NCBI RefSeq assembly: GCF_017357825.1
Contig: NZ_CP046072.1
Location: 1,116,001-1,180,000 of the forward strand
Direction: 5' to 3'
From: Sulfurimonas aquatica
GTDB taxonomy: Bacteria; Campylobacterota; Campylobacteria; Campylobacterales; Sulfurimonadaceae
DNA length: 64,000 nt
Shown piece after piece: positions 49,228 to 51,969 of the stretch. The notes under the pieces are model-generated. The model worked only from the letters and a program-made list of their open reading frames with translations. It had not been told where the DNA came from and ran no database searches. Numbering within the stretch: the first letter of the stretch is position 1; each line of letters opens with the position of its first letter. Made by a program: the position numbers and the translations under genes.

Positions 49228-49778
49228 TAGTTTTTCTCCTTTAAAAGAGCGTTTTTAAAGCCCCAAAGATACTCAAATCCAGAGTAAAGCGTAAGAAATA
49301 CTGCAAACCATAAAAGCTCAGTGCCTAAAGGCCAGTGCATAAGTAAAAAGCCTATGGCTATCATCTGTGCCACAGTTTTTACTTTTCCAGCCCATGAGGC
49401 TTTTACGCTTAAGCCTTCACTCACGGCAACTGTACGAATGCCAGTGATGAAAAGCTCACGAACAATGATGATGTAGATAGCCCAAGCCGAAGCTTCTCCT
49501 ATCATCATAAGACCAAGAAATGCGGCTAGTGTAAGCATCTTGTCAGCTAATGGGTCTAAGATGGCTCCAAGCATTGTCATCTGGTTCCACTCTCTTGCGA
49601 TATAGCCATCAAAAAAATCAGTAGCAGAAGCCAAAACAAAAAGCAGCGAAGCAAAGTAGTAGTTCCATGTTATGTGAAATCCATTATCTGTAAAAAGCTG
49701 CGGATTTAAGATAATCCAGAACATTAATGGAGCTAGTAAAATTCTAAGTGAAGCCAAAAAATTTGGTAAGTTTAGCAA
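49227..49778 (-). CDS. pgsA: CDP-diacylglycerol-glycerol-3-phosphate 3-phosphatidyltransferase
   Basis: 183 aa membrane enzyme making phosphatidylglycerol phosphate. The CDP-alcohol phosphotransferase signature D-G-x2-A-R-x8-G-x3-D-x3-D is seen as DFFDGYIAREWNQMTMLGAI followed by LDPLADKM (about residues 57-85). Four to five helices surround it. The start is TTG (49778), preceded by AAGGA. The 1-nt overlap with rseP shows co-translation. It is the last stable housekeeping gene before the plastic region that begins at 49855. Confidence 0.95.
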   Translation of the reverse strand: MLNLPNFLASLRILLAPLMFWIILNPQLFTDNGFHITWNYYFASLLFVLASATDFFDGYIAREWNQMTMLGAILDPLADKMLTLAAFLGLMMIGEASAWAIYIIIVRELFITGIRTVAVSEGLSVKASWAGKVKTVAQMIAIGFLLMHWPLGTELLWFAVFLTLYSGFEYLWGFKNALLKEKN

Positions 49779-49857
49779 AAAATATCCTTGCGTTTATAGT
49801 TAGGGAATTTTAGCTTTTTGGCTCTTAATATAGGCTTGGTCTATTAGAATAATAGTG

Positions 49858-49863
49858 TATAAT
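49858..49863 (+). promoter_or_regulatory. Promoter -10 box directly before the truncated SprT-like gene
   Basis: A perfect TATAAT ends 6 nt before the ATG at 49870. Standard spacing would put transcription start at or next to the A of the ATG, with no room for a leader or ribosome site. A TTGGTC at 49836-49841 is a possible weak -35. Confidence 0.6.
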
Positions 49864-49869
49864 TGTTCT

Positions 49870-50223
49870 ATGAAAAAAAGGCTGGAAATTTTCTTTATCC
49901 TTGTTATTGTTGTCGCTTTAGCCATTTTAATAAATAACTTTTACAAGAGTTATAGTTTTAAAAATAGTGATATCCCACAAAGCTATAAAGAGAGAATAAA
50001 AGATAAAGAACAAGAAGTACTAAGGAATATGCAAAGTGCTTATGGTTTTACAGTACGGTTTCCTCTTGAAGTGACTGATAAGTTTAGGGGAAGACTCTAT
50101 GGAGTTACCTCATATGATAAAGGGGATATAAAAATCTATCTTAACAAAAAGGTTATGCAAGAGAGTATGGACTATAGAGATACACCTGTAAGTTTTTTAT
50201 TATTGTACTTCATAGATTCCTAG
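49870..50223 (+). pseudogene. Truncated SprT-like metallopeptidase paralogue
   Basis: 117 codons from ATG 49870. It is clearly related to the gene at 50303: shared patterns are NxYKSYxFKNxDxPxSYK, NMQxxYGFT, VTDKFxGRLYGxTSY and IKIYLNKKVMxESM. The match stops just after ESMDY, before the zinc-binding HEYAH of the intact copy, and the frame runs on into an unrelated hydrophobic tail (SFLLLYFIDS). The N-terminal membrane anchor (about residues 5-21) is retained. Without the active site it cannot be a protease, so it is probably a decayed duplicate, though expression cannot be excluded given its good promoter. A GTG at 49855 is an alternative start but lies upstream of the -10 box. Confidence 0.75.
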
Positions 50224-50291
50224 GATTATATATGGTTGTGTAGTTTAATATGGGTTTGTTTATCATTGATGAAAATGTAGCAGATTCTAGG

Positions 50292-50297
50292 TATAAT
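50292..50297 (+). promoter_or_regulatory. Promoter -10 box directly before the SprT-like gene
   Basis: TATAAT ends 5 nt before the ATG at 50303, so a transcript would begin at or within a base or two of the start codon. No purine-rich ribosome site exists between. A TTGATG at 50266-50271 is a loose -35 at 20-nt spacing. Confidence 0.6.
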
Positions 50298-50302
50298 ATT
50301 TC

Positions 50303-50794
50303 ATGTTTATAAAGAAATTAGAGTTTATATTTGCGAGTGTTATTCTTCTTGCAATGTCTGTTCTTGGATTGAATTACTATAAGAGTTATGCATTTAAAAA
50401 TAATGATTTACCCGAAAGTTATAAAAAACATATAGAAATGAAAGAAAAAGAAGTCCTTTCCAATATGCAAAAGCATTACGGATTTACCTTAGATATTCCG
50501 TTGATTGTTACAGATAAGTTTCAAGGAAGACTTTACGGTCTTACTTCGTATAAAAATGGTCAGATAAAAATTTACCTTAATAAAAAAGTGATGAAAGAAA
50601 GTATGGAATATATTTTGGGGACTGTAATAGCACATGAATATGCTCATGCTATGATGTTTCAGCAAGGTTATATGCATACGAAAGACGATGGACACTCATC
50701 GCTTTGGCAAAAGACTTGTGTAAAACTAGGTGGTGAAGATTGTCAACAATATGTTGATCAACAAGAGATTATAATGTCCAAAATGCCGTTTTAA
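50303..50794 (+). CDS. Membrane-anchored SprT-like zinc metallopeptidase
   Basis: 163 aa. An N-terminal membrane anchor (about residues 9-23, FIFASVILLAMSVLG) precedes a soluble domain with the zinc motif HEYAH at 111-115 (VIAHEYAHAMMFQQ) and a later His131 in DDGHSSLWQKTC, matching SprT-like/gluzincin layouts. It should be exposed to the periplasm. Cys139 and Cys147 could pair. The ATG is 5 nt downstream of a TATAAT with no ribosome site. It is a tandem paralogue of the truncated copy at 49870. The biological substrate is unknown. Confidence 0.8.
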   Translation: MFIKKLEFIFASVILLAMSVLGLNYYKSYAFKNNDLPESYKKHIEMKEKEVLSNMQKHYGFTLDIPLIVTDKFQGRLYGLTSYKNGQIKIYLNKKVMKESMEYILGTVIAHEYAHAMMFQQGYMHTKDDGHSSLWQKTCVKLGGEDCQQYVDQQEIIMSKMPF

Positions 50795-50879: not shown

Positions 50880-51155
50880 TTAATACACTTCATCGTGTGA
50901 ACCTATTTCTATTGGAATAATTTCTTTTTCTGTGATAATGAGTTCAAGAGTGATGCGGTAGCTGATATTAATCGAGATCGAATGAAGATCTGAAAGTTTT
51001 CCAGTAAGTTTGTGCAACCTTAAGGATGGGTGGTGAGGATTTGCTTCGAGAAGTCTAATTGTCTTTTCATACTGAGAAAGTAGCTCAGGATGCTTCTTGA
51101 TAAATTTTCGTATACGCTTTTCATATTGCTCTGTAAAGATTAACTTATAAGTCAT
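50880..51155 (-). CDS. RelE/ParE-superfamily toxin
   Basis: 91 aa from ATG 51155 (MTYKLIFTEQYEKRIRKF); an in-frame ATG at 51179 would add eight residues. The fold pattern is a first strand, two helices (YEKRIRKFIKKHPELL), then LRLHKLTGKLSDLHSISINISYRITLELII and a final IGSHDEVY strand, typical of RelE/YafQ mRNA interferases. Basic residues and a late His/Asp are compatible with RNase activity. The start lies inside the antitoxin gene (11-nt overlap), the usual antitoxin-first operon. Confidence 0.86.
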   Translation of the reverse strand: MTYKLIFTEQYEKRIRKFIKKHPELLSQYEKTIRLLEANPHHPSLRLHKLTGKLSDLHSISINISYRITLELIITEKEIIPIEIGSHDEVY

Positions 51156-51399
51156 CGTGAAGTGCCTTGATGTGCTCATCGGCAGTTAATATTTTTGCTT
51201 TTCCCTCTTTTATCTCTTTATGTGTCTCCATCAATGCAGCTTCAAGTTCACATTCTCTAAGATAATTATAGTGTTCTAAATTCATTACGACATATTTAGA
51301 TTTCCCACGTACACTAATAATCGCTTCATCATCTTGCTTAAGTGCCTCATCTAGAAGTGTGACACCTCTTGTTTTAAGGTCATTTGCCATAATAGTCAT
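51145..51399 (-). CDS. Phd/YefM- or RelB-type antitoxin
   Basis: 84 aa (81 if the Met at the MANDL start is used). The N-terminal half is a DNA-binding and dimer domain (ANDLKTRGVTLLDEALKQDDEAIISVRGKSKYVVMNLEHYNYLRE) of the Phd/YefM kind; the C-terminal half is an acidic helical toxin-binding tail (EIKEGKAKILTADEHIKALHDD). It would repress its own promoter and neutralise the toxin with which it overlaps. Two AGTATT words 12 nt apart upstream (about 51417-51434) could belong to its operator. Confidence 0.86.
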   Translation of the reverse strand: MTIMANDLKTRGVTLLDEALKQDDEAIISVRGKSKYVVMNLEHYNYLRECELEAALMETHKEIKEGKAKILTADEHIKALHDDL

Positions 51400-51510: not shown

Positions 51511-51969
51511 ATGTATGTAGGATATGCAAGAGTTTCAACTTCAAGCCAAAATCTTGAGAATCAAATTGATCAACTTAAAGATGCTGGCTGTGTAAAGATT
51601 TTCTCTGAAAAAAAATCTGGTAAAAATAAAGCTGATCGTCAAGAGTTTAATATAATGATGGATTTCGTTCGAGAAGGAGATATACTTTTTATCACAAAGC
51701 TTGATAGATTAGCAAGGTCTGTAATAGACCTTCAGAATATTGCAGAGTTTGAGAGAGATCTTATTAACGAGCGAGTTAGAGAAGGAATTGAAGCTGCAAA
51801 GAAAAAAGGAGTTCAATTTGGAAGAAAAGCTATTCTAGATAGCAAAGAGAAAAATGTCATATATAAAGAACATGAAAAAGGAAAGTCTGTAGCATGGCTA
51901 TCAAAATTCTTCCATGTTGCTCGTAATACAATCTATAGAGCTATTAAAGATGTAGCTAAAAAGAAATAG
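51511..51969 (+). CDS. Serine recombinase (resolvase/invertase) with internal deletion
   Basis: 152 aa, against about 185-200 for the family. It keeps the N-terminal catalytic motif YARVSTSSQNLENQID (Ser9, Arg7) and KLDRLARSVIDLQNI. It then jumps straight to AEFERDLINERVREGIEAAKKKGVQFGRK, so some 40-45 residues normally between LQNI and IAEFE (the end of the catalytic core and part of the E-helix approach) are missing in frame. A C-terminal helix-turn-helix (KSVAWLSKFFHVARNTIYRAI) remains. It likely binds DNA but cannot recombine normally. Good AAAAGGA ribosome site. Confidence 0.85.
   Translation: MYVGYARVSTSSQNLENQIDQLKDAGCVKIFSEKKSGKNKADRQEFNIMMDFVREGDILFITKLDRLARSVIDLQNIAEFERDLINERVREGIEAAKKKGVQFGRKAILDSKEKNVIYKEHEKGKSVAWLSKFFHVARNTIYRAIKDVAKKK

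Follow-up and report, generated by a model that had tools for sequence, protein, structure and literature searches.

Two adjacent genes of Sulfurimonas aquatica, each with an exact TATAAT a few nucleotides before its ATG, raise the question of whether they form a tandem pair of SprT-like genes that are expressed from leaderless mRNAs, and whether this arrangement was already present before a duplication that gave rise to the pair. They lie in a 64,000-nucleotide stretch of contig NZ_CP046072.1 (positions 1,116,001 to 1,180,000; hereafter the window, in whose own numbering all coordinates of this locus are given). A pgsA-like gene (CDP-OH_P_transf) diverges from the pair; past it, on the + strand, the first gene (copy 1, 49870-50223) is followed by the second (copy 2, 50303-50794), and the end coordinate of 50794 given in the original prediction is correct.

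An SprT-like protease gene next to a fragment

Three features define the coding part of the locus:

49870 to 50223, + strand: copy 1, a truncated relative of copy 2 with 117 codons, assigned from its identity to copy 2, Pfam and alignment
50176 to 50302, + strand: junction, running from where the homology of copy 1 stops to copy 2; best outside match E 0.021 over 32 nt
50303 to 50794, + strand: copy 2, an intact, probably membrane-anchored SprT-like zinc metalloprotease of 163 aa, assigned from Pfam PF10263, alignment and AlphaFold2

Copy 2 belongs to the SprT-like family PF10263 both by its profile score, which lies above the cut-off (36.5 bits against 25.6, E 4.8e-9), and by its HExxH...H motif. 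The latter is represented by HEYAH at residues 111-115 and H131, which together with two cysteines are nearly invariant in a 34-row alignment. An AlphaFold2 model built on a four-sequence alignment (mean pLDDT 75) has a single long N-terminal helix followed by a small protease domain. We read the modeled helix as a putative membrane anchor, and the positively charged N-terminus suggests that the protease domain would be periplasmic. Copy 2 is thus an intact gene whose predicted product is a small zinc protease of SprT-like (gluzincin) type, probably anchored in the inner membrane.

Copy 1 shows 64% identity to copy 2 over 100 aa, but the homology stops at the residue aligned with position 103 of copy 2, and a 15-residue unrelated tail leads to the stop codon. 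It keeps the putative membrane anchor and is devoid of HEYAH...H, and no SprT-like Pfam match was obtained for it at E up to 1, so that it has neither the profile match nor the HExxH of PF10263. As copy 1 breaks off near residue 103, before the HExxH, and lacks a Pfam match, it is not a second SprT-like gene and is best read, on its alignment, as the decayed remainder of a relative. Hence, of the two tandem SprT-like genes originally predicted, copy 2 is borne out and copy 1 is not; the reading of both as SprT-like proteases is ruled out by the loss of the catalytic half in copy 1, a point relevant to annotation. If expressed, copy 1 would yield an anchor that lacks the catalytic part. The junction (50166-50302 in this search) has no convincing match elsewhere among the sequences searched, the best being the 32-nt match noted above.

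Several observations concern the surroundings of the two copies. Approximately 33 of the 135 genomes of the genus contain a full or partial match, with 78-100% identity, to a segment of about 32 nt (49807-49838) that lies upstream of pgsA on the - strand and perhaps represents a conserved pgsA promoter. Downstream of copy 2 is a toxin-antitoxin-like pair on the - strand (50880-51399) resembling YafQ and Phd/YefM, with both members below the Pfam cut-offs. It is followed on the + strand (51511-51969) by a resolvase-type recombinase of 152 aa. This protein falls short of the usual length and its match is split into two stretches, which may reflect an internal deletion.

Promoter boxes and start codons

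The two boxes are as follows:

49858 to 49863, + strand: -10-like TATAAT of copy 1, at N6, the local peak spacing in a sample of this genome
50292 to 50297, + strand: -10-like TATAAT of copy 2 (ggTATAAT), fitting the layout gnTAnaAT-N5-9-ATG of PMC3847290

In copy 1 the box is followed by TGTTCT and the ATG at 49870, leaving a gap of 6 nt, and in copy 2 by ATTTC and the ATG at 50303, leaving a gap of 5 nt. None of the words AGGA, GGAG, GAGG, AAGG, AGGG or GGGA occurs 3-11 nt 5' of either ATG; copy 2 has an AGG 12 nt 5' of its ATG, which is too far for the 3-11 nt rule and was not counted as a Shine-Dalgarno (SD) site. The observation that started this work, a TATAAT 5-6 nt before both start codons with no ribosome site, therefore stands. 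A consensus promoter scan additionally assigned to the copy 2 box a -35-like ATGAAA with a 17-nt spacer, and listed no matching -35 for the box of copy 1.

RNA polymerase recognizes a -10 element through its housekeeping sigma factor, transcription can begin at the A of the ATG, and ribosomes can translate such a leaderless message. If the two boxes act as sigma-70-type -10 elements, transcription of each copy would begin at the A of its ATG or no more than one base from it, and the resulting mRNAs would be leaderless and read by the ribosome without an SD site; in the case of copy 2 the product would be a membrane-anchored zinc protease. We favor, with a probability of about 0.6, the explanation that copy 2 is an intact SprT-like protease gene and copy 1 a decayed fragment, both driven by -10 elements as leaderless genes; the start sites, leaderless translation, protease activity and membrane topology in this explanation are predictions.

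Spacing of the box in the genome

The bare TATAAT-ATG pattern is not enriched: in the window, 8 instances of TATAATN{5,7}ATG (the two copies among them) compare with an expectation of 5.2, a count of 8 being reached in 15 of 100 shuffles, and TATAATN{5,6}ATG occurs 142 times genome-wide against 129 for a reversed-pattern control. The spacing of the box relative to start codons was profiled in a sample of 464 kb, made up of the window and 20 segments of 20 kb each, which contains 338 genes with a candidate ATG, both copies excluded. Genes were called without a gene finder, as open frames of at least 90 aa from stop to stop, longest first; any ATG within the first 25 codons was taken as a candidate start, and SD sites were scored by a simple word match 3-11 nt before the ATG.

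Among these 338 genes, 9 have TAnAAT at N6 before a candidate ATG and 4 have it at N7, as against one each at N4, N5 and N9 and none at N8. The peak is only local, since counts rise to 3-13 per position at N22-36, where ordinary -10 boxes lie, and are 4-13 over much of that range. Over spacings 0-14, N6-7 accounts for 13 of 40 occurrences (p = 0.0015 against the remaining spacings, with N6-7 picked after the profile had been seen). None of the 13 N6-7 genes has an SD site at that ATG, and 8 have a G two bases before the hexamer. The corresponding figures are 9/13 and 0/13 for the N10-14 genes, 6/9 and 3/9 for the N0-2 genes, and 1/4 and 2/4 for the N3-5 and N8-9 genes pooled. As the hexamer at N6-7 fills the SD zone, the SD deficit is partly forced, and we therefore place the weight on the spacing peak and on the G at -2. 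About 4% of the sampled genes (13/338) carry the TAnAAT-N6-7-ATG layout.

One of these 13 genes, with TATAAT-N6-ATG, lies directly upstream of uvrC. A dRNA-seq-based study predicts just one gene to lack a leader in every epsilonproteobacterium that carries it, and this gene always lies upstream of uvrC (PMC3847290); we equate the two by position only, not by homology. Taken together, the N6-7 peak and this gene make it very probable that the genome uses leaderless genes. Copy 1 is placed at the common N6 and copy 2 at N5, one base short of the peak, a spacing seen in only one of the 338 other genes. The two copies stand out against their neighbors, as originally claimed, but only mildly, for many genes are without an SD site too: an SD-like word is present at the candidate ATG in 32 of the 56 other window genes and in 212 of the 338 sampled genes.

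These counts bear on the possibility that the two boxes are no more than coincidental matches in AT-rich intergenic sequence, with the genes weakly or not expressed and copy 1 a pseudogene anyway. The closeness of the pattern counts to background, in both window and genome, would agree with it, as would the truncation of copy 1 and the signs of decay elsewhere in the family (one homologue, L057, in two frames and a C-terminal remnant in genome G039). However, the background of 1.23 TATAAT per position among the 338 first ATGs (N15-70) implies a chance rate of roughly 0.7% per gene at N5-6, so that two such neighbors by chance are unlikely, yet unremarkable in a scan of many genes. Given also that copy 2 is intact and conserved, we regard this explanation as quite improbable.

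The main rival is a single transcript that arises at the copy 1 promoter or further upstream and runs through both copies, with copy 2 being a leadered, SD-poor gene and its TATAAT incidental. The two copies are on the same strand and only 79 nt apart, and the scan listed no terminator-like site on the + strand between 49700 and 51000. It also found further + strand promoter-like sites upstream of the copies, at 49772-49800, 49825-49853 and 50175-50203 (12 sites in the scan against 7.2 in shuffles), which make leadered starts possible, and the spacing in copy 2 is off the peak. Against this, copy 2 has the fuller ggTATAAT context and no usable SD site. We hold read-through to be unlikely, if less so than the chance explanation, and retain two leaderless genes as the preferred reading.

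Homologues and the age of the arrangement

Within the genus, 41 of the 135 genomes carry homologues, and in a sample of 200 genomes of the family 47 do; the S. aquatica genome itself gives two matches, namely copies 1 and 2. The nearest homologue among the sequences searched shows 71% identity. We compared 47 homologue places, that is 45 besides the copies, of which 43 are within the genus and two outside it (L018 and L031). This set excludes nine further matches outside the genus, repeats (L002, L032, L033 and L038-L047 before the search, identical matches during it), and homologues lacking a start, namely the second piece of L057 and L067 (the G039 remnant), both C-terminal, and a match at a contig end in G197. 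At 5 of the 45 places (L003, L020, L028, L055 and L060) the codon aligned with the family start is not ATG, GTG or TTG, and that position itself was taken as the start; an upstream open frame denotes at least 45 codons from stop to stop and not a proven gene. An SD site is seen at 17 of the 45 other homologous starts and an open frame ending within 60 nt upstream at 23, figures that weigh against the leaderless reading. The comparison of promoter-ATG spacing in homologues, which had been put forward as a check, recovered a comparable box (TAnAAT at N5-7) at only 3 of them (L034, L036 and L010).

Three of the homologues without a regular start codon (L028 in G117, L055 in G210 and L060 in G138) have ATC instead of ATG at the family start, with AGGA 7 nt before it. 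In L028 and L055 the ATC lies 14 nt past the 3' end of the tmRNA gene ssrA as located by ARAGORN (1109-1483 with the frame from 1498 onward, and 2325-2700 with the frame from 2715 onward, respectively), whereas in L060 no tmRNA was found, only what seems to be a remnant of the 3' end of ssrA such as an integration site would have. Possible readings are an AUC start and an island boundary at ssrA.

The SprT-like gene is patchy in its distribution and, judging from the sequences, sometimes multiplied or decaying. The draft genome G189 has four copies on four contigs (L003, L052, L053 and L054), the gene is broken into two frames in L057 (G139), and only a C-terminal piece remains in L067 (contig C7 of G039); the homologue on contig C88 of G127 reads as one intact frame. 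A search of phages gave one match (E 6e-3, over half the protein) and a search of plasmids one, on a Sulfurimonas paralvinellae record. No Pfam name was found for the gene downstream in L013.

The original prediction had further proposed that the box was retained in both genes from before their duplication. A TATAAT-N5-ATG inherited by both copies from an ancestor, which perhaps arose where an upstream dksA/traR-like gene ended in Leu-stop (TTA-TAA-T), finds some encouragement in near homologues: L034 and L036 have TATAAT-N5-ATG and L035 has TATAAA-N5-ATG. In L036 the box overlaps the Leu-stop of a dksA/traR-like gene (PF01258), in L035 the TATAAA overlaps that of a gene with the same C-terminal sequence, and in L034 the box lies over the stop of an open frame of 20 codons, which we read as what is left of such a gene. 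No convincing orthologue of this dksA/traR-like partner was found in the S. aquatica genome, the best match showing 37% identity over 46 residues (E 7e-8).

Alignments of the upstream 60 nt, evaluated with shuffles that preserve single-base composition only, relate L034 to L036 and L035 to L036 (0 of 1000 shuffles as good in each case). For copy 2, the number of shuffles as good per 1000 is 43 with L034, 87 with L036, 626 with L035 and 661 with L003, and for copy 1 it is 186 with L034, 587 with L036 and 847 with L035. The value of 0.043 for copy 2 and L034, which might speak for an ancestral box, is unconvincing as one of eight comparisons involving a copy. Between the copies themselves 138 of 1000 shuffles are as good and the alignment is out of register. 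Moreover, in a tree of 45 rows (L056 and L064 being dropped as too divergent) copies 1 and 2 are not sisters, with sisterhood not rejected (p-AU 0.154), and TAnAAT at N5-7 is absent from 42 of the 45 other starts.

Retention of the box from before a duplication thus finds no support in the upstream alignment, the tree, the homologues or the truncated state of copy 1, and we consider an ancestral box shared by both copies very unlikely, though possible. Still more speculative is a scenario in which the Leu-stop (TTA TAA T) of the dksA/traR-like neighbor gave rise to a leaderless promoter, which came to serve the SprT-like gene within that operon and stayed with it as the gene moved elsewhere and multiplied. 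Were this to be true, stop codons could seed leaderless genes.

Comparison with known systems

The predicted protein of copy 2 shares with the SprT-like family PF10263, which includes SprT and Spartan/SPRTN, the HExxH...H zinc protease domain. It differs from SprT in its N-terminal helix, here read as a membrane anchor. SprT has a C-terminal zinc-binding region, in place of which copy 2 has a short C-terminus and two nearly invariant cysteines. The best PDB match of the copy 2 model is to 6mdw/6mdx, titled 'Mechanism of protease dependent DPC repair', which we take to be human SPRTN, but the match is weak (E 4e-3). The model also suggests a small gluzincin-like fold reminiscent of the minigluzincins jannalysin and selecase and of the BlaR1 protease domain, to which the matches are of low confidence (E 0.012-0.06, 12-17% identity). 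No PDB structural match to the model was obtained at E 0.001 or better, and no solved structure was matched by sequence at E up to 1.

Leaderless mRNAs are known in the epsilonproteobacteria Campylobacter jejuni and Helicobacter pylori and have been predicted in Sulfurimonas, with a layout consisting of a sigma-70 -10 box, gnTAnaAT-N5-9-ATG, and no SD site; in C. jejuni 19 of 471 5' UTRs are shorter than 10 nt, and 12 of these 19 transcripts have the first nucleotide of the start codon as their 5' end (PMC3847290). A literature search on Sulfurimonas and leaderless genes yielded nothing relevant besides this study, whose accessible part makes no mention of an SprT-like gene. Copy 2, with ggTATAAT-N5-ATG, conforms to the published layout, and its gg before the box is like that of C. 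jejuni cj0153c (ggTAAAAT) (PMC3847290). Copy 1, with tgTATAAT-N6-ATG, fits the hexamer and the spacing; the base two before its hexamer is T, so that it is without the G of gn given in that study, a G also missing in 5 of the 13 sampled N6-7 genes. Both copies are free of an SD site, as in the known class. The loose occurrence of the box among homologues has a counterpart in PMC3847290, which reports a like looseness between species.

Leaderlessness of the two copies is hence supported by analogy, their layout matching a class known in epsilonproteobacteria and apparently present in this genome; their start sites are predictions from the sequence. It is plausible by this analogy that both are members of the leaderless class, whose layout is known and not rare. 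Our analysis does not overturn current knowledge; it contributes further likely members to the leaderless class known from epsilonproteobacteria, and provides a sequence-based estimate of 13/338, with a clear spacing preference, for a Sulfurimonas-type genome.
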